DNA of 64,000 nucleotides from an uncultured Verrucomicrobiota bacterium (GTDB taxonomy: Bacteria > Verrucomicrobiota > Verrucomicrobiia > Limisphaerales > UBA9464), in the NCBI GenBank assembly GCA_903907995.1, contig CAIVQH010000046.1, positions 124,001 to 188,000 on the forward strand, written 5' to 3'. The notes below the pieces were generated by a model. The model saw nothing but the letters and a program-made list of their open reading frames with translations, was not told the origin of the DNA and ran no database searches. The position numbers and the translations under genes are program-made. Of this stretch, positions 5,570 to 62,252 are shown one piece after another (within the stretch, counting starts at the first letter, position 1; every line of letters begins with the position of its first letter).

Positions 5570-5686
5570 ATTTGGAAAACAGGAAAACAGGAACCGAGGA
5601 AAACTCCTTAGGTTTTGATTGCAGCCCAGCTCTTGATCCGTTCACGGAAGCCGAGCTCCGGCCTTTTTCGGTTTCCTGTCTTCCCT
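5570..5686. repeat. Octamer-type array and inverted copy, left flank of gene remnant
   Basis: Units of the GAAAACAG type occur in tandem at about 5575-5600, and the inverted form (TTTCCTGTCTTCC) at 5672-5684. The right arm ends exactly where recognisable protein homology of the downstream remnant begins. The same unit appears again at 6087-6183 and, inverted, at about 49188-49204. Confidence 0.5.
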
Positions 5687-6086: not shown

Positions 6087-6183
6087 GGAGAAGACGAATT
6101 TGGAAAACAGGAAAGCAGGAACCGAGGGAGTGAGGAGGCAGGTCCTTTTCCTGTGGTCCTTTTTTTCCAAATTGGTCTTCTCC
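6087..6183. repeat. 97-bp inverted-repeat element with octamer units
   Basis: The outer arms 6087-6106 and 6164-6183 match as inverted repeats at 19 of 20 positions. Inside are GAAAACAG/GAAAGCAG/GAACCGAG tandem units on the left and the inverted form on the right. Together with 5570-5686 it brackets the monooxygenase remnant. Confidence 0.7.
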
Positions 6184-7855: not shown

Positions 7856-7900
7856 GCCATGATACACGAATGACCACCGCGCCACCGTGACCGAATTCCC

Positions 7901-7933
7901 AATTCGAAACTCGGAACTCGAAACTCGAAATTT
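7901..7933. repeat. Heptamer tandem array (AACTCGA-type units)
   Basis: About four and a half units of 7 bp (AATTCGA, AACTCGG, AACTCGA, AACTCGA) stop three bases before the stop codon of the convergent rnd gene. The ends (AATTCG, CGAATT-like) are self-complementary. A sister array with unit ATTCGAA lies at 18515-18542. Confidence 0.65.
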
Positions 7934-7936
7934 CCC

Positions 7937-8995
7937 TCAGTCCTTCAGGAGGTCCCTCTGCCAGGTCAGCAACCGCTCCCATTCGCCCGGCTCCTGGCGG
8001 CCCAGGGCAAAGAGCGTGCTGCGGGAGGCGATGATCGTCGGATCGATCCCCAGTTCGGCCCCGCGCTTGTCCCGGCGCTCCTTCAGGACGTCGGCGTAAT
8101 CCAACTCGGTCCCGGTCATGCGGCGCGAGCGCACCCGGATATGCTGGGGGCGTTCGGCCTCCGGCACGGCCAGACCGCGATCGATCGCGTCCAAAATGCC
8201 GCCGCGGCGCTTCGGGGTCAGGAAGTGGGGCAGCTTCACGGCCTTGGTGCCGCCCTTGCTGGCCTGGGCGGCGATCTCACTAAGCGCCTCGTGCTTGAGA
8301 ATGAAGAACGGCGGACGGCCGGTGCGCAGCGCATCCTTTTCGCGCCAGTACCAGAGCTCGCGCAGGACGGCGAGCCCGGTCTCATCGAGCTGGTCGTGGC
8401 CGCGGATGCGCCAGACAGTGTTCGCATCCACCTCGCTGGGACGCGCGTTGTCCTCGATCAGGCGGACGCACAGCTCCCGGTGCCATTCCAGCCGGCCCAG
8501 CTCAACCAGGCGGGCGCGGAGCTTCTGTTCCAGCTCGCGCAGGTGGCGCACGTCGTTGAGCGCGTACTCGGTCATGCGCGGCGTCAGCGGGCGGCGGCCC
8601 CAGTCGGCCTTCTGGGCGCCCTTTTCCAGGGTCAGGCCGAGGTACTTGGTGAGGCAGTCGTTGAGCCCGAACTTGGGTTCGCCGACGAGCCGGGCCGCCC
8701 ACATCGTGTCAAACAGGGTCGTCGGCTTGAAATGGTGCCCGTTGTAGAGAAGGTGCAGGTCGTAGTCCGAGGCGTGCAGGATCAGCTCATGCTTGTCGAA
8801 GGCCTCCCAGACGGGTTCCAGGTGCAGGTCGGCCAGCGGATCGACCAGATAGGCACCGTCCGGAATCGCGATTTGCAACAGGCACAGTTTCTCCGGATAC
8901 GCGTGCAGGCTGTCTGCCTCGGTATCAATTCCGACCCAGGGGGCGTCGTGAATGCGGGCCGCAAGTTCGCTCAGTTCAGCGGCGGATTGAATCAC
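7937..8995 (-). CDS. rnd: Ribonuclease D
   Basis: A 352-residue DEDD-family 3'-5' exoribonuclease that acts in tRNA 3'-end maturation and RNA turnover. Motif Exo I is [10 protein letters not shown] (Asp24, Glu26). Exo II lies around [11 protein letters not shown], and the Exo III tyrosine motif is in [12 protein letters not shown]. An HRDC domain follows from about residue 205 ([20 protein letters not shown] through [13 protein letters not shown]). Length and order match bacterial RNase D. The ATG at 8995 starts immediately before [11 protein letters not shown], the usual N-terminus. It is convergent with the small gene at 7532 and divergent from the TIM-barrel gene. Confidence 0.93.
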
Positions 8996-9129: not shown

Positions 9130-10191
9130 ATGAGCAAGAAGACTTCCGCCGCTCCGGCCGCGAACAATTTCCCCAAGCTTCACAACGCCATGTGGCCCGG
9201 CCTCGTCGGCAAGGGCAGCCCCGGCGCGGAGCCGTTCATCGACCTCGACACCATGCTCGACCTCACGGCCAAGGCCGAGGTCAACGGCGTGAAGTTCGAC
9301 GGCGTGGACCTCTTCCTCTACGACCCGCATGTCAACATCGACATCTCCGACGACAACCTCAAGCGGCTCGCCGACAAGATCAAGGCCAAGGGCTTCGTGG
9401 TCGGCTCCGTCGTCGCGCCCGTGTGGTTTGACGGTTCGGCGATGGGTGACGAGACCAAGCGCGCCAACTGGGTCACCGCCGTGAAGAAGGCCTGCCGCAT
9501 CGCCAAGAAGCTGCGCGAGCTCGGCGTGCGCCCCTATGGCGTCGTGCGCATTGACTCGGCCGCCAGCGTCACGGACTGGGACAAGGACCCGAAGAACAAC
9601 ACCAAGCTTATCGCCAAGACCTTCAAGGAAGGTGGCAAAGTCGCCAAGGACCACGGCGAGCGCCTCGCCGCCGAGGGCGAAATCTGCTGGGGCGGCATGC
9701 ACTCCTGGAAGTACATGATCCAGACCCTTGAGGCCGTGGGCATGCCCAAGGTGGTCGGCTTCCAGGCTGACATGGCGCACACGCTTCTCTACACGCTCGG
9801 CTACAACGCGCCTGAGCACCGCATCGTGCCGGAGAAGTTCCACTGGGAACCCGCCGTGTTCCACGCGGCGATGAAGAAGATGACCGACGCGCTGCGGCCC
9901 TGGACGTTCGACTTCCACGTCGCGCAGAACGACGCCACGGTCAAGGGCTCCGGCGACCACGAGAAGACCGGCAAGCACTGCCCGGTCAACGACGTGTACG
10001 GCAAGCTCAACGTGGCCCGCGACTCCGCCTACTGGCTGCGCGATTCCGCAGGCAAGGTGACCAAGAAGACCCGCCACATCTGCTGGGACGGCTGCATGTT
10101 CCCCAACGAGATGCTCATGAAGCAGGAGACGTGGAACAACATCCTCGCCTCGATGCTGCAGGTCCGTGAGAACCACGGGTGGCGCGAGTGA
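9130..10191 (+). CDS. Sugar phosphate isomerase/epimerase-like TIM-barrel protein
   Basis: A 353-residue cytoplasmic protein with the look of the xylose-isomerase-like TIM barrel (AP endonuclease 2 superfamily). The N-terminal MWPGLVGKG and the repeated beta-strand/helix pattern are seen ([57 protein letters not shown]). The acidic and histidine residues in [16 protein letters not shown] and DFHVAQNDA are plausible metal ligands. The ATG at 9130 (MSKKTSAAP) is chosen over in-frame codons back to 9016. Its stop codon lies inside the start of the repeat at 10188. The substrate is unknown. Confidence 0.75.
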
Positions 10192-10301
10192 GACAGTATT
10201 CAGTAATCAGCAGGTCAGTGATCAGTGGCCCAGCAGTCTCACCCGCCCGTCCACCCGCTCACTGACCCACTGATTACTGATTCACTGATTTCTGTCTCAC
10301 T
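10188..10301. repeat. Heptamer tandem array with inverted copy (AATCAGT-type units)
   Basis: The terminal arms AGTGAGACAG (10188-10197) and CTGTCTCACT (10292-10301) are perfect inverted repeats. Inside, degenerate 7-bp units (ATTCAGT, AATCAGC, GGTCAGT) on the left are mirrored as ACTGATT/ACTGACC-type units on the right. It overlaps the stop of the upstream gene and ends 11 bp before the recF start. Confidence 0.8.
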
Positions 10302-10312
10302 GCCCCCATCCG

Positions 10313-11422
10313 GTGCATCTGGCCCACCTGCGTCTCCGTGACTTCCGCAATTATGTGCGGTTGGACGCGGAGTTCACGCCCGGCTTCCACCTGCTGCTCG
10401 GCGGCAACGCCCAGGGCAAGACAAACATCCTCGAGGCCATCTACCTGCTCGCGACCCTGCGCTCGTTTCGTGGCGTGGGCGGCGCGCAGATGATCCGGCA
10501 TGGGGCGAAGGGCTACTTCGTCGGCGGCACCGTCGTGGGCCAGGCCGCTGCGGAGATCAAGGCCTACTGGTCGGCCAAGGAGCGCAAGCTGTCGCTGAAC
10601 GGCACGCCGGTGCGGCGGCTGGCGGATTACTTCGGGACGCTGCGCGCGGTGGTGTTCTGCACGGAGGACCTGCAGCTCGTGAAGGGCGCGGCGCGCGGGC
10701 GGCGGCGCTTCCTCGACCTGCTGCTGGCCCAGACCCAGCCAGCCTACCTGCCCCTGCTGCTCCGCTACACGCAGGCGCTGCGCTCGCGCAACGCGCTGCT
10801 CAAGCAGCCGTCGGTGGACGAGGCTCAGCTGGCCAGCTTCACGCAGGAACTGGTCATGCTCGGCACGCAACTGATGGAGGCACGCCGGGTGTTGGTTCCG
10901 AAGATCTCGCCACTTGCACGGCTGGCCTTCCGCCGCATCGCCCACGACCAGGACGAGCTGAAGCTCGACTATGCGCCGAGTGTGAAGGGCGATTTCGCCG
11001 TGGCGCTGGCCAATAGCCGCCCGCGAGAGCGGACCTATCGGACGACGCTGGTCGGACCGCACCGCGACGACCTGTCGCTGGTGGTGAATGACCACGACGC
11101 AGAGGCCTACACGAGCGAGGGACAGAAGCGGACTCTCGCCATCGCCCTGAAAATGGCGCAGGCGGAATACTTGACCGGCATCCACGGACGTCCGCCGGTG
11201 CTGCTCATCGACGACGTAATGGGCGAGCTGGACGCCCGTCGTCGCGCGGGACTGTTGCCCTTGCTCAATCAGGCCCGCCGCACGGGCGGACAGGTCTTCA
11301 TGACGTGCACCGAGGAAAACTGGCCCCAGGAGCTGGGGAGCGAGCTGACGCGGTGGGAAGTGAAGGGCGGAACCCTGGAAAAAGCTCAAAGTTCAAAGCT
11401 CCAAGCTCCAAGCTCCGACTGA
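10313..11422 (+). CDS. recF: DNA replication/repair protein RecF
   Basis: A 369-residue SMC-like ATPase that loads RecA with RecO and RecR at single-strand gaps. The Walker A motif is GGNAQGKTNILEAIY near residue 30. The signature motif lies in YTSEGQKRTLAIALK, and Walker B is VLLIDDVMGELD. The start is GTG at 10313 (MHLAHLRLRDFRNY), the expected RecF N-terminus. The last dozen codons (EKAQSSKLQAPSSD) are encoded by the heptamer array at 11382-11416, so the native C-terminus has probably been replaced or extended. The gene is not beside dnaA, dnaN or gyrB here. Confidence 0.93.
   Translation: MHLAHLRLRDFRNYVRLDAEFTPGFHLLLGGNAQGKTNILEAIYLLATLRSFRGVGGAQMIRHGAKGYFVGGTVVGQAAAEIKAYWSAKERKLSLNGTPVRRLADYFGTLRAVVFCTEDLQLVKGAARGRRRFLDLLLAQTQPAYLPLLLRYTQALRSRNALLKQPSVDEAQLASFTQELVMLGTQLMEARRVLVPKISPLARLAFRRIAHDQDELKLDYAPSVKGDFAVALANSRPRERTYRTTLVGPHRDDLSLVVNDHDAEAYTSEGQKRTLAIALKMAQAEYLTGIHGRPPVLLIDDVMGELDARRRAGLLPLLNQARRTGGQVFMTCTEENWPQELGSELTRWEVKGGTLEKAQSSKLQAPSSD
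11382..11416. repeat. Heptamer array inside the 3' end of recF
   Basis: Five tandem 7-bp units (AAGCTCA, AAGTTCA, then AAGCTCC three times) run up to the recF stop codon. No inverted copy is seen downstream, so this is a one-armed member of the class. Confidence 0.75.
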
Positions 11423-11455
11423 GGCGTAGGACGTCCGCGACCAAGCGCGCTCGCT

Positions 11456-11624
11456 TCTCATTAACACCGGGGTTTCAACCCGGTGCCACCGAACCTTCCA
11501 GCAATATAACCGTTTCCAACGGTTTTGGCCACGGAGCCCGTCGAAGTGGCTCTGGCAAACCGTTAGAAACGGTTGTGGTCACGATAGGCTGGAGGCACCC
11601 GGTTGAAACCGGGTGTCAATGAGA
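11456..11624. repeat. 169-bp nested inverted-repeat element (MITE- or REP-like)
   Basis: The outer arms 11456-11487 and 11594-11624 match as inverted repeats at nearly every position. Each arm is itself a small hairpin built on CACCCGGTTTCAACCGGGTG-like sequence. Inner inverted repeats pair AACCGTTTCCAACGGTT near 11508-11524 with AACCGTTAGAAACGGTT near 11558-11574. The whole segment can fold as one long structure. No open reading frame with protein character lies inside. Confidence 0.75.
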
Positions 11625-11640
11625 CACTTGCTTCCTCTCG

Positions 11641-15584: not shown

Positions 15585-15665
15585 GGTTTAAATGCAGCGG
15601 GACGATGCGGCTGGCCGGGCCCGAGAGGCAACACGCAAGCACACGTCCGCCAAACGGTGTCTCAA

Positions 15666-15743
15666 TCCTAATCGTAATCTTCATCATAATCGTAATCGCG
15701 AGAAACGTGGGGATCAGGATCACGATCAAGATTACGATTAGGA
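15666..15743. repeat. Hexamer tandem array with inverted copy (AATCGT-type units)
   Basis: Left arm 15666-15699 consists of 6-bp units (CCTAAT, CGTAAT, CTTCAT, CATAAT, CGTAAT). Right arm 15710-15743 consists of the complement (GATCAG, GATCAC, GATCAA, GATTAC). The outer 16 bp of both arms are perfect inverted repeats (15666-15681 with 15728-15743). It lies in the divergent gap between lpxI and the protease gene. Confidence 0.85.
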
Positions 15744-15800
15744 TGCCATCCGCACGCGGCGACGACTTGCGAAAGAACGGGCTTCAGGCAGCGTTGCCGG

Positions 15801-18386: not shown

Positions 18387-18472
18387 GGCTCATGCTCTTG
18401 CTCCTGCTCATGCTCATGCTCTTTATCCTCTTCAGTCCTTTCAGAACGGCCCATGGAGCAAGAGCATGAGCC
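18387..18472. repeat. Hexamer tandem array with inverted copy (GCTCAT/GCTCTT units)
   Basis: The left arm 18387-18435 consists of 6-bp units (GCTCAT, GCTCTT, GCTCCT). The right arm 18455-18472 is the exact inverted copy of the first 18 bp of the left arm. The left arm carries several more units than the right. The same units appear at 36786-36865. Confidence 0.85.
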
Positions 18473-18514: not shown

Positions 18515-18542
18515 ATTCGAAATTCGAAATTCGAAATTCGCA
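18515..18542. repeat. Heptamer tandem array (ATTCGAA units)
   Basis: Four near-perfect 7-bp units (ATTCGAA three times, then ATTCGCA) lie 22 bp upstream of the ATG at 18565. The unit contains the palindrome TTCGAA, so the array is self-complementary. Confidence 0.75.
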
Positions 18543-18564
18543 ACTTGTCGCTACACTCCCTCGC

Positions 18565-19155
18565 ATGGTCGTTGCCACCAGCGCGGTCGAAATCCTGCCC
18601 GGTGTCCACCGCTGGGCTGCCTTTTCGCCGGAGCATAGGGTCGAGCTGGCGGCGCATTCGGTCTGGGATGGGCGCACCCTGCTCATTTTCGACCCCATCC
18701 CGCTGGCGGCCGAGGTCTTTGACTGGTTTCCCACGCCCCAGGCGCCCGATGCCGTGGTGCTTACCAACGGCAACCACGAACGTGACGCCGCCCGTTGGCG
18801 CGAACTCTTCCCACTCCCCATCTGGGCAGCGCCGGAGACCCAGCCGATACTCGAAGGCGTGAGGCGCTGGGATGTCACCCAGCCCCCCTTCCCTGGCTGG
18901 TGGATCATTCCTCTGCCCGGCGGCGCGGTCGGAGAAAGCGCTTGGTTCTGCCCGGCGAAGTCGCTCGTCGTCTTTGGCGACGCGGTGGTAAACCTCTCTG
19001 GTCGCGGCCTGGAACTGCTGCCGGCCAAGTATTGCCGGGACCCGGCGGAATTGCGTCAATCCCTGCGCGGCCTGCCGGAATTCGCCCATGCGGTGTTTGC
19101 TCACGGGGAGCCGATCCTGGACGGCGCTTCCGCCCGGATCGCCGCGCTCTTGTAA
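18565..19155 (+). CDS. MBL-fold-like hydrolase, atypical
   Basis: A 196-residue protein with the beginning of a metallo-beta-lactamase-like fold (VEILPGVHRWAAFSP, HSVWDGRTLLIFDPIP). In place of the canonical HxHxDH it has TNGNHERDAARW, which keeps one His and the Asp. Later elements that fit the fold are PLPGGAVGESAWF, KSLVVFGDAVVN and AVFAHGEPILDG. The metal site is therefore incomplete, and activity is uncertain. The ATG at 18565 is chosen because the upstream frame reads through the repeats. It lies 34 bp before the lolC/E-like gene and may share a transcript. Confidence 0.65.
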   Translation: MVVATSAVEILPGVHRWAAFSPEHRVELAAHSVWDGRTLLIFDPIPLAAEVFDWFPTPQAPDAVVLTNGNHERDAARWRELFPLPIWAAPETQPILEGVRRWDVTQPPFPGWWIIPLPGGAVGESAWFCPAKSLVVFGDAVVNLSGRGLELLPAKYCRDPAELRQSLRGLPEFAHAVFAHGEPILDGASARIAALL

Positions 19156-36785: not shown

Positions 36786-36865
36786 GGTCTTATCCTGCTC
36801 ATGCTCTTGCTCTTGCTCCCAGGACAAGAAAACTGACTGAAGGGAGTAAGAGCATGAGCAAGACC
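36786..36865. repeat. Hexamer tandem array with inverted copy; arms differ by whole units
   Basis: The left arm 36786-36820 contains GCTCAT and GCTCTT units, and the right arm 36842-36865 is their inverted copy. When aligned, the left arm has one extra GCTCTT unit and one extra 5-6 bp unit. The array ends 14 bp before the rsmD ATG. Confidence 0.85.
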
Positions 36866-36879
36866 AGGAATTGCGAATT

Positions 36880-37485
36880 ATGCGAATCATTGGCGGACAG
36901 GCGGCAGGCCGGCTTGTGAAGGTCCCCGAAGGGCTGGGCGTCCGGCCCATGCCCGACAAGGTCAAGCTCGCGGTCTTCAACTCGCTGGGCGATTTCGTCG
37001 CCGGCGCGAGGGTGCTGGACCTGTTTTCCGGCACCGGTGCGCTGGGGCATGAATGCCTCAGCCGAGGGGGGGTGCTGCTCCACAGTGTCGAGAAATCGGA
37101 GAAGCACGCGCGGTTCTACCGCCGCAACCTGGTGGCGGCCGGTTTGCCGGAGCACGCGGTGGAACTGCGGGTGAACGATGTTTTTAGCGCGGTGCCGGCA
37201 CTGGCGACGGCGGGCCGGCAGTTTGACCTCGTGATCGCCGATCCGCCCTACGGCGAGAAAAACGTCGGCCGCCGTTCCACTTCGCTGGCCCAGCGGCTGC
37301 TGGACGAACCGAATCTGCCGCGCGTGCTCGCCCCCGGTGGCCTGTTCATCCTCGGCCATACCAAGCGCGACACCCTGGAAGTTCCGGCCTTCTGGAAGGA
37401 GCACCGGCAGCTCAAACATGGCGACACCGTGATCCGGTTTTTTAAGCCGGGGACCCCGACGACAGTGTCCGGATCCCCTTCTTAA
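36880..37485 (+). CDS. rsmD: 16S rRNA (guanine(966)-N(2))-methyltransferase RsmD
   Basis: A 201-residue SAM-dependent methyltransferase. The N-terminus MRIIGGQAAGRLVKVPEG is the RsmD signature. The SAM-binding motif is VLDLFSGTGALGHECLSRG (residues 45-63), and the catalytic motif is DPPY at residues 121-124. It methylates G966 of 16S rRNA. The ATG at 36880 gives the family N-terminus. The stop codon TAA lies within the first units of the downstream hexamer array. The usual neighbour coaD is not here. Confidence 0.94.
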   Translation: MRIIGGQAAGRLVKVPEGLGVRPMPDKVKLAVFNSLGDFVAGARVLDLFSGTGALGHECLSRGGVLLHSVEKSEKHARFYRRNLVAAGLPEHAVELRVNDVFSAVPALATAGRQFDLVIADPPYGEKNVGRRSTSLAQRLLDEPNLPRVLAPGGLFILGHTKRDTLEVPAFWKEHRQLKHGDTVIRFFKPGTPTTVSGSPS

Positions 37486-37556
37486 TCTTACTCATAATCC
37501 TAATCTTAATCACTTTGCCCTCGCGATTAAGATTATGAGTAAGATGAAGATGAAGA
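37482..37556. repeat. Hexamer tandem array with inverted copy (AATCTT units), overlapping rsmD stop
   Basis: Left-arm units (AATCTT, ACTCAT, AATCCT, AATCTT, AATCAC) run from the rsmD stop to about 37512. Right-arm units (GATTAA, GATTAT, GAGTAA, GATGAA) cover 37526-37556. CTTACTCATAAT and ATTATGAGTAAG are perfect complements. The left arm has one extra CCTAAT unit. Confidence 0.85.
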
Positions 37557-56640: not shown

Positions 56641-57858
56641 TTAACCGGTCGCAACGGGCGACGACAGCACCTCGCCGATGACGCGGTCAAAGTCGGCAAA
56701 CACCCGTTCCAGCGTGAATCGCCGTTCGACCGTTCGCCGGCCGGCGGTAGCAAAGGTGGCCGCCCGGGCGCGATCTTCCACGAGGGCCACCATATGGCGC
56801 AAATACTCCGCGACCGATCCCGGCGCGGCCAGCAGCCCATCCACGCCATCGGTCAGGATTTCCGGCACCCCGCCCGCCCGCGCGCCGATCACCGGCACGC
56901 CCACGGCCATGGCCTCAATCAGCACGCGGCCAAACGGTTCCGGCTTGGTCGAGCAATGCAGCAGCACGTCCAGTTGCGAGAGCGTGACCGCGATGTCGGC
57001 CTGGAAGGCGACAAAGTGAACGCGGTTTTCGAGCCGGTGGTAGCGGACGAATTCCTTCAGCGAGGTCTCGAACGGCTCATCCTCGTTAAAGGCCCGCCCG
57101 ATGATCACGAAACGTCCGGGCCGGCCGGCCGCCGACCATTCGGCCGCGAGCCGCAGGAACAGATCCTGCCCCTTCCAGGGGGTGATCCGACCCACCAGGC
57201 CGAACAGCGGTTCGCCCGGTGAAATTTTCAGCCGGTCGCGCAGCAGCGTGGATTCGCTGCGCCGGTACCGCTCCAGCGGGATGCCGTTGTGAATGGTCAC
57301 GATGCGCTCGGCGGGCAGCCCCTCCGCGATCAGGGCCGCGCGGCCGAAATCGGAAACCGGGGTGAGCCGCGTGGCCAGCTTCCGCGCCTTGGCCACAAAC
57401 ACGCGGCGCACCGGCCAGGAAAAAAAGTCGGCGGAGAGGATGTCGTTCACCCACCACACGCTCGGCCGGCCGGTGTCGGCGGCCACCGCTCCGGCGGTGA
57501 AGTGATCCTTGTTGGCGCAGGACAGCAGCACATCCGGCCGCACCCCGGCCACGATTTCACCCAGCCGTCCTGTGGCCCGCTGGAGTTCCTGCCAGCCGCG
57601 CAGCTTGCCGATGGGGTTAAGGCCGCGGCCCACGATGCGCAGCTCGTTCAGCGCCGGCGCAAAGCCATAGGTGTGGCACGGCACCTCCAGCTTCGCCAGG
57701 GCCGCCGCCAGCGGGCTTCCGGGCGCGCAGGCCACGCTCACGTCCCAGCGCGTGCGCGCCTCCGGGAGCCCGAGCAGCTCGAGCAGATTGACCTCGGCCC
57801 CGCCCAGCACCTTGCTGACGTGGTCCACAAACAGAATGCGCGGTCGTTCCCGGTTCAT
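56641..57858 (-). CDS. Glycosyltransferase family 4 (group 1), first gene of the cluster
   Basis: A 405-residue GT-B enzyme. The start MNRERPRILFVDHVSKVLGGAE has the conserved G-G pair of the acceptor domain. The donor site includes FGLVGRITPWKGQDLFLRL, VHFVAFQADIAVTLSQLD and STKPEPFGRVLIEAMAVGVP with the two Glu of the EX7E motif. The ATG at 57858 is the sensible start; the longer in-frame reading to 57942 is made from the heptamer array. It heads a five-gene minus-strand cluster: three GT4, a WecA-like enzyme and moeA. The cluster probably makes a surface polysaccharide. Confidence 0.92.
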   Translation of the reverse strand: MNRERPRILFVDHVSKVLGGAEVNLLELLGLPEARTRWDVSVACAPGSPLAAALAKLEVPCHTYGFAPALNELRIVGRGLNPIGKLRGWQELQRATGRLGEIVAGVRPDVLLSCANKDHFTAGAVAADTGRPSVWWVNDILSADFFSWPVRRVFVAKARKLATRLTPVSDFGRAALIAEGLPAERIVTIHNGIPLERYRRSESTLLRDRLKISPGEPLFGLVGRITPWKGQDLFLRLAAEWSAAGRPGRFVIIGRAFNEDEPFETSLKEFVRYHRLENRVHFVAFQADIAVTLSQLDVLLHCSTKPEPFGRVLIEAMAVGVPVIGARAGGVPEILTDGVDGLLAAPGSVAEYLRHMVALVEDRARAATFATAGRRTVERRFTLERVFADFDRVIGEVLSSPVATG

Positions 57859-57868
57859 CAACGCGGGC

Positions 57869-58056
57869 GGACGGTAAGAGGGAGTAAGGAAAAAGGAAAA
57901 AGGCAAAAGGCAAAAGAAAGCAAAGGCCAGACGTCGTAACACTAAGGGCTTGAGGCGCGTTCCGGTCGGCAGCTCAAATCTTTTCCTTTTGCCTACCCAC
58001 CGCCTTTTGCCTTCCGCCGTCCTTTTACCTTTTGCCTTTTTCCTTTTCCCTTACCC
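57869..58056. repeat. Longest heptamer array with inverted copy (AAAAGGC units)
   Basis: The left arm (57869-57927) contains tandem 7-bp units (GTAAGGA, AAAAGGA, AAAAGGC, AAAAGGC, AAAAGAA). The right arm (57980-58056) holds the complement (CCTTTTG, CCTTTTA, CTTTTTC and others) in a longer series. A 32-bp block matches between arms at about 30 positions. The element takes up almost the entire gap between two divergent genes, from 11 bp before one start to 1 bp before the other. Confidence 0.9.
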
Positions 58057-58057
58057 C

Positions 58058-58786
58058 GTGCCGAGCAAGTTCTACGTCGAAAGCGACGCGCGGGCCGCGA
58101 AGGTGGAAGACCTCTTCGCGACCATCGCGCCGCGCTACGACCTGATCAACGACCTGCAGAGCTTCGGGCTGCACCGGTGGTGGAAGCGCCGCCTGCTCCG
58201 GCTGGCTGCCGTGCAGCCCGGCGAACACGCGCTCGATGTCTGTTGTGGCACCGGCGATGTGACTTTCGCCCTCGCGCGGGCCGGTGCTGAAGCCACCGGC
58301 TTCGACTTCAGTGAGCCGATGCTGGCTGTCGCCCGCCGCCGGGCGGCCGCCTGGCGCGCCCCGCTCACCGCTCCGCGCTTTGAACAGGGCGATGCCCTGC
58401 AACTCCCCTTCGCTGACGGCAGTTTTGAGGTAGTCACGATCAGTTATGGGCTGAGGAACCTCGCGGATTTCGACCGGGGACTGCGGGAACTGACCCGGGT
58501 GCTGCGACCCGGAGGACGCCTGCTGGTGCTCGATTTCGGCAAGCCCGACCTCGCCGCCTGGCGCTGGCTCTACTTCCAATACCTCCGCTGGCTGGTGCCG
58601 CTGTTTGGCCGGCTTTTCTGCGGCGATGCCGACACACACGGCTACATTCTGGATTCCCTTCGCAAATTCCCCGCCCAGCGCGGCGTGGAATTGAAGCTGC
58701 ACGAACTCGGCTACGCTGAAACCCAGGTCGTGAACCTGCTCGGCGGCATCATGGGCATCAATTACGGGCGAAAGCGGTTGGACTGA
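58058..58786 (+). CDS. ubiE: Demethylmenaquinone methyltransferase (UbiE/MenG family)
   Basis: A 242-residue SAM-dependent C-methyltransferase of quinone biosynthesis. The family start KVEDLFATIAPRYDLINDLQSFGLHRWWKRR is present. The SAM motif is ALDVCCGTGDVTFALARAG, followed by DALQLPFADGSFEVVTISYGLRN and a closing GYAETQVVNLLGGIMGINYG. GTG at 58058 is the likely start because the sequence upstream in frame is repeat. The window's NDH-2 would reduce the quinone product. Whether the quinone is menaquinone or ubiquinone cannot be told; menaquinone is likely for this phylum. Confidence 0.92.
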   Translation: MPSKFYVESDARAAKVEDLFATIAPRYDLINDLQSFGLHRWWKRRLLRLAAVQPGEHALDVCCGTGDVTFALARAGAEATGFDFSEPMLAVARRRAAAWRAPLTAPRFEQGDALQLPFADGSFEVVTISYGLRNLADFDRGLRELTRVLRPGGRLLVLDFGKPDLAAWRWLYFQYLRWLVPLFGRLFCGDADTHGYILDSLRKFPAQRGVELKLHELGYAETQVVNLLGGIMGINYGRKRLD

Positions 58787-62155: not shown

Positions 62156-62252
62156 TATTAATCATACTCATAATCTTTATCTTAATCCTCTTCGCGCGAA
62201 GCGGAAGAGAAACCCAGAGATTAGGATTAAGATTATGATTACGATCAAGATG
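62156..62252. repeat. Hexamer tandem array with inverted copy (AATCTT/AATCAT units)
   Basis: The left arm 62158-62193 is built from ATTAAT, CATACT, CATAAT, CTTTAT, CTTAAT type units. The right arm 62216-62252 holds the complement (GATTAG, GATTAA, GATTAT, GATTAC, GATCAA). The left arm has one more TTTATC unit than the right. An inner palindrome CTTCGCGCGAAG lies at the centre. Confidence 0.85.

Follow-up and report, generated by a model that had tools for sequence, protein, structure and literature searches.

Short-unit tandem arrays in verrucomicrobial intergenic gaps tend to read outward from the edges of open reading frames

Introduction

How does a pair of mirrored, short-unit tandem arrays come to lie between two genes? 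The question is raised by the gap flanked by the starts of two divergent genes, one for a GT4 glycosyltransferase and the other ubiE; in it, degenerate AAAAGGN heptamers and their inverted copy are separated by a spacer of 105 bp. The left arm (57886..57916) reads outward from the start edge of the glycosyltransferase gene, and the right arm (58021..58052) ends 5 bp short of the GTG start of ubiE. The original prediction, made from the letters of the window (the whole stretch of 64,000 nucleotides analysed here), listed 13 sites of this kind. It held that they share one plan with a unit peculiar to each site and mostly an inverted copy, and proposed slippage with hairpin template switching as the generator. 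In cyanobacteria, the STRR sequences are tandem heptamers in intergenic DNA, and the arrays described here resemble them in both respects.

Sequence data and array detection

The window is C46:124001-188000, part of a 60-contig, 5.1 Mb genome whose assembly is 95.7% complete. Gaps were defined as the DNA between open reading frames (ORFs) found by a purpose-written, simple codon-usage caller, so called starts are uncertain and stops less so. Arrays were scored by period-p self-matches within gaps, using a threshold of 14 on contig C46 and of 11 on a 1.39 Mb set of six contigs with 864 gaps (232 kb of padded gap DNA and 1.14 Mb of coding DNA). The nearest relative compared, G003, belongs to the same genus and shows ~92% DNA identity over the aligned parts (~311 kb).

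Abundance and location of the arrays

Tandem arrays with units of 6–8 bp are a real, genome-wide class, far above the level of shuffled DNA. In the gaps of C46, 50 dinucleotide shuffles gave mean counts of 0.0 at period 7 and 0.02 at period 6, where the actual sequence has 11 and five segments; the coding DNA of this contig contains one period-6 and one period-12 segment and zero at the other periods from 4 to 11. Equality with shuffled intergenic DNA was the outcome against which the original prediction had staked the class, and the 1.39 Mb set gave 32, 120 and 32 gap segments at periods 6, 7 and 8 against 0–3 each in five shuffles. Periods 3, 4, 5, 9, 10, 11 and 13 gave 0–5 segments, and the signals at periods 12 and 14 (17 and 59 segments) are harmonics. 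After removal of overlaps, 183 arrays remain in 141 of the 864 gaps (31 of period 6, 120 of period 7 and 32 of period 8). Arrays are present in coding DNA too, with 31, 7 and 3 segments at periods 6, 7 and 8 in 1.14 Mb, and the 7- and 8-mer arrays show a strong intergenic bias. Since periods 9 and 12 are as raised there as period 6 (34 and 32 segments), the coding hexamers probably reflect codon-length repeats. Arrays can also form ORF tails: the last residues of the recF reading frame (10313-11422), KAQSSKLQAPS, are encoded by a heptamer array that lies 6 bp from the ORF end. Downstream of recF, at window positions 11440-11625, several short palindromes of the CACCGGG...CCCGGTG and AACCGTTT...AAACGGTT types were seen by reading; they resemble palindromes that lie next to a Y1_Tnp (RAYT-type) gene of G003 (L293).

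Per kb of gap, 0.60 divergent, 0.70 convergent and 0.76 tandem gaps contain an array (1.39 Mb). Because this density is nearly even, neither a terminator rule nor a divergent-gap rule stands. The first 279 kb had suggested a divergent-gap enrichment, which levelled out at 1.07 and 1.39 Mb, and the reading of the arrays as terminators was rejected; the 3'-end placement expected of intrinsic terminators is not seen, divergent gaps having a similar array density and 12 of the 42 inverted pairs. Among gaps shorter than 200 bp, an array is present in 1/52 divergent, 33/295 tandem and 9/73 convergent gaps.

Sites of the window and two classes of array

Twelve of the 13 sites are short-unit arrays by their TRF rows (Table 1). 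The exception is site 689, which has no tandem row and is, on direct reading, an imperfect inverted repeat (fold z about -5). Just before it, positions 655-685 read as a G+C-rich hairpin followed by TTTTT, which is terminator-like. The inverted copy ascribed to most sites is present at 8/13 in the window, and beyond it the description fails, since 43/123 arrays on 1.07 Mb have one. These eight arms were recognized by reading at sites 6087 and 10188 and by score at sites 15666, 18387, 36786, 37482, 57869 and 62156; a further one, at site 5570, is weak by score. Sites 7901 and 18515 have no inverted arm scoring above shuffles, and none was seen by reading at site 11382, which is outside the scored set. 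Self-complementary units as a replacement for the missing arm were rejected, only 6/123 arrays being above shuffles. Folding on both strands is better than in shuffles at ten sites of the window (z -2.9 to -10.6), and positions 10189-10303 gave z values of -6.8 and -10.6.

Table 1. Coordinates of arrays and neighbouring genes in the window
Feature	Position	Strand	Basis and remarks
GGAAAACA octamer arm, outer end ATTT	5574..5601	+	TRF, scores
GGAAAACA octamer hairpin arm	6102..6121	+	TRF, reading; right arm read at about 6143-6183
Solitary heptamer edge array, CGADTTN	7891..7930	-	TRF, scores; 6 bp from stop edge of minus gene 7937-8995
Degenerate CAGTRAT arm, just past stop of gene 9130-10191	10193..10230	+	Direct reading; under score threshold
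Inverted ACTGATT array, upstream of recF (10313)	10259..10302	-	TRF
AAAGCTC heptamer array, C-terminal tail of recF reading frame	11381..11416	+	Coding period-7 array; translation
Hexamer hairpin, left arm	15664..15698	+	TRF, scores
Hexamer hairpin, right arm	15711..15744	-	TRF, scores
Hexamer hairpin, left arm, GCTCNT variant	18388..18421	+	TRF, scores
Hexamer hairpin, right arm	18455..18471 (C46 142455-142471)	-	Pair score
Solitary heptamer array, CGADTTN	18515..18543	-	TRF, scores; 21 bp before called start of gene 18565-19155
Hexamer hairpin, left arm	36793..36818	+	TRF, pair score
Hexamer hairpin, right arm	36844..36869 (C46 160844-160869)	-	Pair score
Compact hairpin, left arm, hexamer NNTCNT, overlaps rsmD stop	37480..37511	+	TRF, scores
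Compact hairpin 3' of rsmD, right arm	37525..37556	-	TRF, scores
GT4 glycosyltransferase gene	56641-57858	minus	Pfam
Focal left arm, AAAAGGN heptamer	57886..57916	+	TRF; period score 21.5; identical in G003
Focal right arm, inverted AAAAGGN	58021..58052	-	TRF, scores; identical in G003
ubiE	58058-58786		Pfam UbiE; GTG start
Hexamer hairpin, left arm	62158..62187	+	TRF, scores
Hexamer hairpin, right arm	62219..62251	-	TRF, scores; realised differently in G003

The single plan proposed for the sites did not hold, because compact hairpins and long-spaced heptamer pairs differ in spacer and position. Pairing is the usual state for hexamers and the exception for heptamers: on 1.07 Mb, an inverted arm accompanies 20/26 hexamer, 18/78 heptamer and 5/19 octamer arrays. 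The 42 non-redundant inverted pairs include 17 hexamer, 16 heptamer and six GGAAAACA octamer pairs. Hexamer and GGAAAACA pairs, with spacers of 6–48 and 10–56 bp, respectively, float within the gap, and heptamer pairs have spacers of 29–133 bp, with the nearer arm at a median of 6 bp from an ORF edge.

In hexamers, the two arms match each other hardly more closely than after permutation of their units (mean 17.1 versus 16.6; 17 rows). The arm match lies above the permutation mean in 25/38 testable pairs, clearly so in some 7- and 8-mer pairs, where unit order is kept between the arms (for example at C46:268848, C23:25955 and C37:109570). Outer ends are shared among the GGAAAACA arms, which end outward in ATTT or ATCT in 25/27 cases by reading and in 18 by script (background 1.4%). 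Across loci, unit order is above permuted order in 56/92 comparisons (p=2e-4, a small effect); it is kept for CGADTTN (17/21) and CAGTRRGY (6/7), and unconserved for hexamers (11/21), AAAAGGN (4/8) and CAGTRAT (3/9). A gradient of uniformity along the arrays was set aside as evidence, since the counts (of 137 arrays, 64 are more uniform in the ORF-proximal half and 40 in the distal half, with 33 ties; p=0.002) may reflect the cutting of array ends.

A shared vocabulary of words

Gap arrays draw on a modest shared vocabulary and not on site-specific units. The idea that the unit differs from site to site was not borne out, since many units recur genome-wide, though many canonical units were seen once. 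The canonical units of the 1.39 Mb set comprise 15 hexamers, 46 heptamers and 18 octamers, with 3–12 occurrences for the most frequent heptamers; they were grouped by hand into about 15–16 degenerate words. These include NNTCNT, AAAAGGN, CGADTTN, CAGTRAT, GGAGACA, RGTCCNR, GAGCGNG and GGAAARCA; some words are loose, and 17/183 arrays fit none at 0.78. The class does not reduce to one transposon family, in line with the original prediction.

Three CGADTTN units in a row were matched in 46/116 genomes of the order, with 63 matches here, 63 in G003 and zero in the same-genus genomes G002 and G005. The backward control of this pattern gave 2 matches here and 12 in G003. In G059, G062 and G102, the control gave 103, 191 and 108 matches and the pattern itself 0, 1 and 4, which suggests that these genomes use a different vocabulary. 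G002 has four arrays in 92 kb that fit words of the present genome. G007 has ten arrays in 100 kb, mostly of another octamer, by reading GTTGAAGG, whose arrays occupy convergent gaps and show the outward layout seen here. Three arrays were found in 51 kb of G005, five in 59 kb of G016 and none in 80 kb of G022.

Strand polarity at ORF edges

As a strong tendency, and irrespective of gene direction, a word points away from the ORF edge closest to it, whether that edge is a start or a stop; hence a pair takes the form X ... reverse-complement of X. In 42/42 inverted pairs, a given word has one and the same strand in the left arm. As the strand labels of the words were fixed after the pairs had been seen, the informative count is 37 pairs from six words with at least two pairs each, and 37/37 are consistent; one AGTCCNA pair fits its word poorly (0.76). 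Solitary arrays provide a separate test: those of words whose strand the pairs had fixed show the same trend relative to the gap centre, with 37 left and 6 right for + words and 12 and 30 for - words (Fisher 7e-8), and it recurs in each gap type (T+, p=0.03; T-, p=0.0006; convergent, p=0.015; divergent, p=0.04). Words with a guessed strand gave 9/2 and 5/8. Within 30 bp of an edge, 47 solitary arrays point outward and 8 inward (stops 30:5, starts 17:3); the paired arrays there, whose pairs set the labels, are 30 outward (21 at stops, 9 at starts) and 0 inward. The distance to the outward edge has a median of 6 bp at stops, where 29/39 solitary arrays lie within 15 bp, and of 53 bp at the less certain called starts, where 12/46 do so.

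The outward rule also applies where a gap contains two different words. In 30 gaps with at least two classified arrays, 26 run + ... -, four run ++ or -- and none is reversed; the outermost word is the same in 15 of the 26, which are label-setting pairs, and different in 11. Gaps with different outermost words number 15, of which 11 run + ... - (three of them resting on a guessed strand of an outermost word), four run ++ or --, and none runs - ... +.

A test free of labels used 146 edge arrays from seven genomes, with G003 left out as orthologous and pairs drawn from different gaps. Similar arrays lie on the same outward strand in 531/620 pairs, compared with a mean of 310 (sd 12, maximum 386) in 2000 random flips. 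Comparisons of stop with start edges agree in 257/295 pairs, pairs within this genome in 303/320, pairs between genomes in 196/264 and pairs that do not involve this genome in 78/98. The remaining 89/620 pairs are opposite, and 11/132 arrays disagree with their partners. The agreement between the two kinds of edge suggests a geometric rule that acts at the level of DNA and is not tied to the sense strand of a transcript.

In stretches from other families, chosen around CGADTTN matches and not by strand or position, the polarity counts are 5/0 and 0/6 in G113 (p=0.002) and 5/1 and 2/7 in G120 (p=0.04), where CGADTTN alone gives 4/1 and 1/4 (p=0.21). The counts in G003 (28/4 and 5/25) are orthologous and therefore not independent. 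A survey of rsmD flanks, covering 75/80 loci (minus L051, which is G003, and four shorter than 5 kb), found arrays at 36 per 1.1 Mb; the polarity trend there is weak (+ 6/2, - 5/9) and the assigned words are often poor fits. Contrary cases are a reversed-looking pair in L098 and, by reading, site 689, both with words of guessed strand.

An unsupervised count of 7-mers recovers an outward bias for part of this vocabulary, for example GGAGACA (37:5), TTCGAAT (33:7) and TCAGTGA (33:9). There is also a general, mild outward G/A bias, strongest at starts, which persists at start edges with the arrays masked; it could strengthen the polarity of words rich in purines, and not that of NNTCNT. Just outside called starts, this genome is G-rich outward, that is, C-rich in gene sense, with a G fraction of 0.51 at the first outward base.

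Comparison with a sister species

The orthologous gaps of G003, a comparison that the original prediction had named as its check, show arrays kept, lost or swapped. Of 90 array gaps on three contigs, 32 could be mapped and 58 could not, the G003 stretches covering these contigs partly. At least one array (match score at least 12) is kept in 22/32 mapped gaps, often with altered sequence or unit number. Starting from the 44 array gaps of G003, 17 have the same word here, 4 another array, 7 none above threshold and 16 are unmapped; some of the seven contain degenerate arrays by reading. Thus the proposal that architecture is conserved and sequence is not applies to some gaps between the sister species, and at others the arrays are lost.

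At the focal site, the 63 bp of the two arms are identical in G003 and the remaining gap is 78% identical. The arms at C41:289669 are likewise nearly identical while the rest of the gap diverges; C41:287993 was rejected as a conservation island, its flanks being conserved too. Array conservation is 0.76 versus 0.56 for gap DNA, and higher for the array in 16/21 gaps, in a comparison biased by the exclusion of anchored gap DNA from the comparator; it was for this reason rejected as proof. Other gaps have changed their words. At C46:196021, a GGAAAACA pair here corresponds to an AAATTCA/AAAGCTC pair in G003. CGADTTN arms are swapped for a variant word with the layout kept at C41:292048 and at C41:151168, where both CGARTTN arms face CGATTTA arms in G003 and a GTTTTC array stays between them. 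The rsmD 3' hairpin has the same word with another sequence in G003, and the hexamer hairpin at 36793-36869 (gap C46:160784) faces a 14-bp stretch without an array.

Origin of the arrays

We favour, at a probability of roughly one in three, the reading that the arrays are dispersed and owe their polarity to the way intergenic DNA is rewritten, by outward copying at ORF edges. Gap DNA would be lost or broken, and the 3' end remaining at an ORF edge would be extended by copying an existing edge array. Priming would perhaps use the G/A-rich stretch that often links ORF and array (an impression from reading, uncounted), and the copied array would then be lengthened and varied by slippage. Because a 3' end at either edge writes 5'–3' away from the gene, the outward strand would be the same at both edges. 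The limit would be set by ORFs and, at start edges, by promoters, since losses reaching into them would be removed by selection. A second, related, gap-floating class would consist of the compact hexamer and GGAAAACA hairpins, which may spread as short copied elements. This model, whose central step we infer, unites polarity, edge distance and word exchange. There is some sign, though uneven, of copying between loci in the shared outer end of the GGAAAACA arms and in the unit order of certain words. A reverse-transcriptase or telomerase-like writer is unsupported, RVT_1 having no match in this 95.7%-complete assembly. Ku has no match in this genome or in G113 and is matched in G003 and G120, so Ku-dependent joining is not required; nor, among the few genomes compared, does its presence follow the array-rich ones.

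The close rival of the copying model is selection for a gene-edge signal, such as a site for a polar DNA-binding factor or a one-way barrier to transcription leaving ORFs. Any word with a suitable property would serve, so that the words themselves could drift under constraint on their position and strand. We consider this possible, if doubtful. The tight placement by stops (29/39 solitary arrays within 15 bp), the avoidance of short divergent gaps and the stable stems at paired sites are consistent with a signal, and the higher conservation of arrays than of neighbouring gap DNA, with the focal arms identical and those at C41:289669 nearly so, could mean selection. A signal would have to be read through about 15 words without common composition, however, and most gaps do without one (only 141/864 have an array). 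In addition, 7/28 mapped G003 array gaps have no above-threshold array here, some being degenerate by reading, and density varies within the genus, as shown by the four arrays in 92 kb of G002.

REPIN- or MITE-like mobile elements with tandem-unit terminal inverted repeats, of which solitary arrays would be decayed halves, are an unlikely source. They would account for the fixed X ... reverse-complement order in 42/42 pairs, the gain and loss of compact hairpins and the common outer end of the GGAAAACA class. However, comparison of the spacers of at least 15 bp (n=35) gave one similar pair, so that MITE-type internal homology is not seen; moreover, mixed-word gaps exist and solitary arrays adjoin stop edges. 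RAYT-type (Y1_Tnp) transposase genes are present, with five matches here and five in G003. The immediate flanks of the three loci read (two here, one in G003) contain other palindromes, a degenerate ACTGA stretch lies about 260–310 bp from one of them, and no scored array lies within 1.5 kb of the Y1_Tnp loci of this genome.

The mechanism first proposed, local slippage building the array and hairpin template switching its inverted copy, is improbable. The degenerate tandem units, and the unit order kept by some 7- and 8-mer arms, agree with it, but mirrored arms should keep their order and hexamer arms hardly do so (17.1 versus 16.6 when permuted). It also leaves unexplained the recurrence of words across the genome and across families, and the polarity of solitary arrays and mixed gaps. 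A G-quadruplex function of the kind considered for Xanthomonas and Nostoc heptamers is scarcely credible, because CGADTTN, CAGTRAT and NNTCNT, which have no G-runs, follow the same polarity as the G-rich words GAGCGNG and GCAGGGGD.

Relation to known repeats

The closest published parallel is found in PMC4692102, which describes GGGAATC / GGGGAYT heptamer repeats in the intergenic DNA of Xanthomonas and Nostoc, with fixed and variable positions. Those heptamers prefer the antisense strand within 50 bp upstream of an ORF or the sense strand downstream of a stop. Inverted pairs number 70 and 75 in two Xanthomonas genomes and are few in Nostoc, the heptamer sequence varies at the same gaps between relatives, and each genome has one G-rich word, considered through G-quadruplexes. 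The arrays described here agree in the dominance of period 7 (120/183 arrays), in the gap bias (32/120/32 in 232 kb versus 31/7/3 in 1.14 Mb of coding DNA) and in the outward rule (stops 30:5, starts 17:3). They differ in having many 6-, 7- and 8-nt words, several without G-runs, and a compact-hairpin class. By sequence, CGADTTN, CAGTRAT and NNTCNT are not G-rich, quadruplex-capable units of the Xanthomonas and Nostoc type. That type is under-represented between divergent ORFs, where the density here is 0.60 against 0.70 in convergent and 0.76 in tandem gaps. As the placement rule is already published for G-rich heptamers (PMC4692102), the present arrays are a multi-word variant of them.

PMC4679880 describes TAACTGA direct repeats just upstream of start codons in marine Beggiatoaceae, some Cyanobacteria and Bacteroidetes, as a single word with one indirect repeat in the main genome and a suggested translational role. 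Our CAGTRAT (= ATYACTG) is a word of its own and the exact TAACTGA unit is absent from it; in gene sense before starts it contains TTACTGA/TCACTGA, one base off those repeats and in the same orientation. The stems of the P6b loop in the Nostoc tRNALeu intron, described in PMC4476775, are class I (TDNGATT) and class II (NNTGAGT) heptamers. They resemble the present arrays in being degenerate heptamers with an inverted copy whose word class is replaced at the same site; unlike these arrays, they occupy one site in a structured intron that requires pairing. In the consulted part of PMC4210602, 54 short tandem repeats are reported from another verrucomicrobium, and the architecture found here is not among the features described. 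Among titles and the beginnings of abstracts in the open-licence literature, no description of such arrays in Limisphaerales was found, and in these sources the outward rule appears in print only for single G-rich repeats of other bacteria. To the published cases this genome adds a vocabulary of many words, hexamer hairpins, agreement between start and stop edges across words without G-runs, and the exchange of words at fixed gaps.

That the published placement rule holds across ~15 words in one genome separates it from sequence and suggests that gene edges are the site of a polar process, or are recognized by a polar reader. It is possible, though we hold it tentatively, that many bacteria share a strand-polar rewriting of intergenic DNA outward from ORF edges with a vocabulary peculiar to each genome; the G-rich, TAACTGA and verrucomicrobial repeats would then be its products and would not reflect a sequence-specific function. 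This bears on the turnover of bacterial intergenic DNA and on the source of its short repeats. As sister species of ~92% identity exchange words at some of the same gaps, the process should be watchable by strain comparison. Other dispersed intergenic families with many G003 matches were seen at L165:13796-13963, L158:15473-15616, L158:18643-18879 and L177:7308-7338, two of them with ends of roughly 40 bp matched on both strands and one only about 30 bp long; by reading, one of these families occupies two gaps where G003 has an array.
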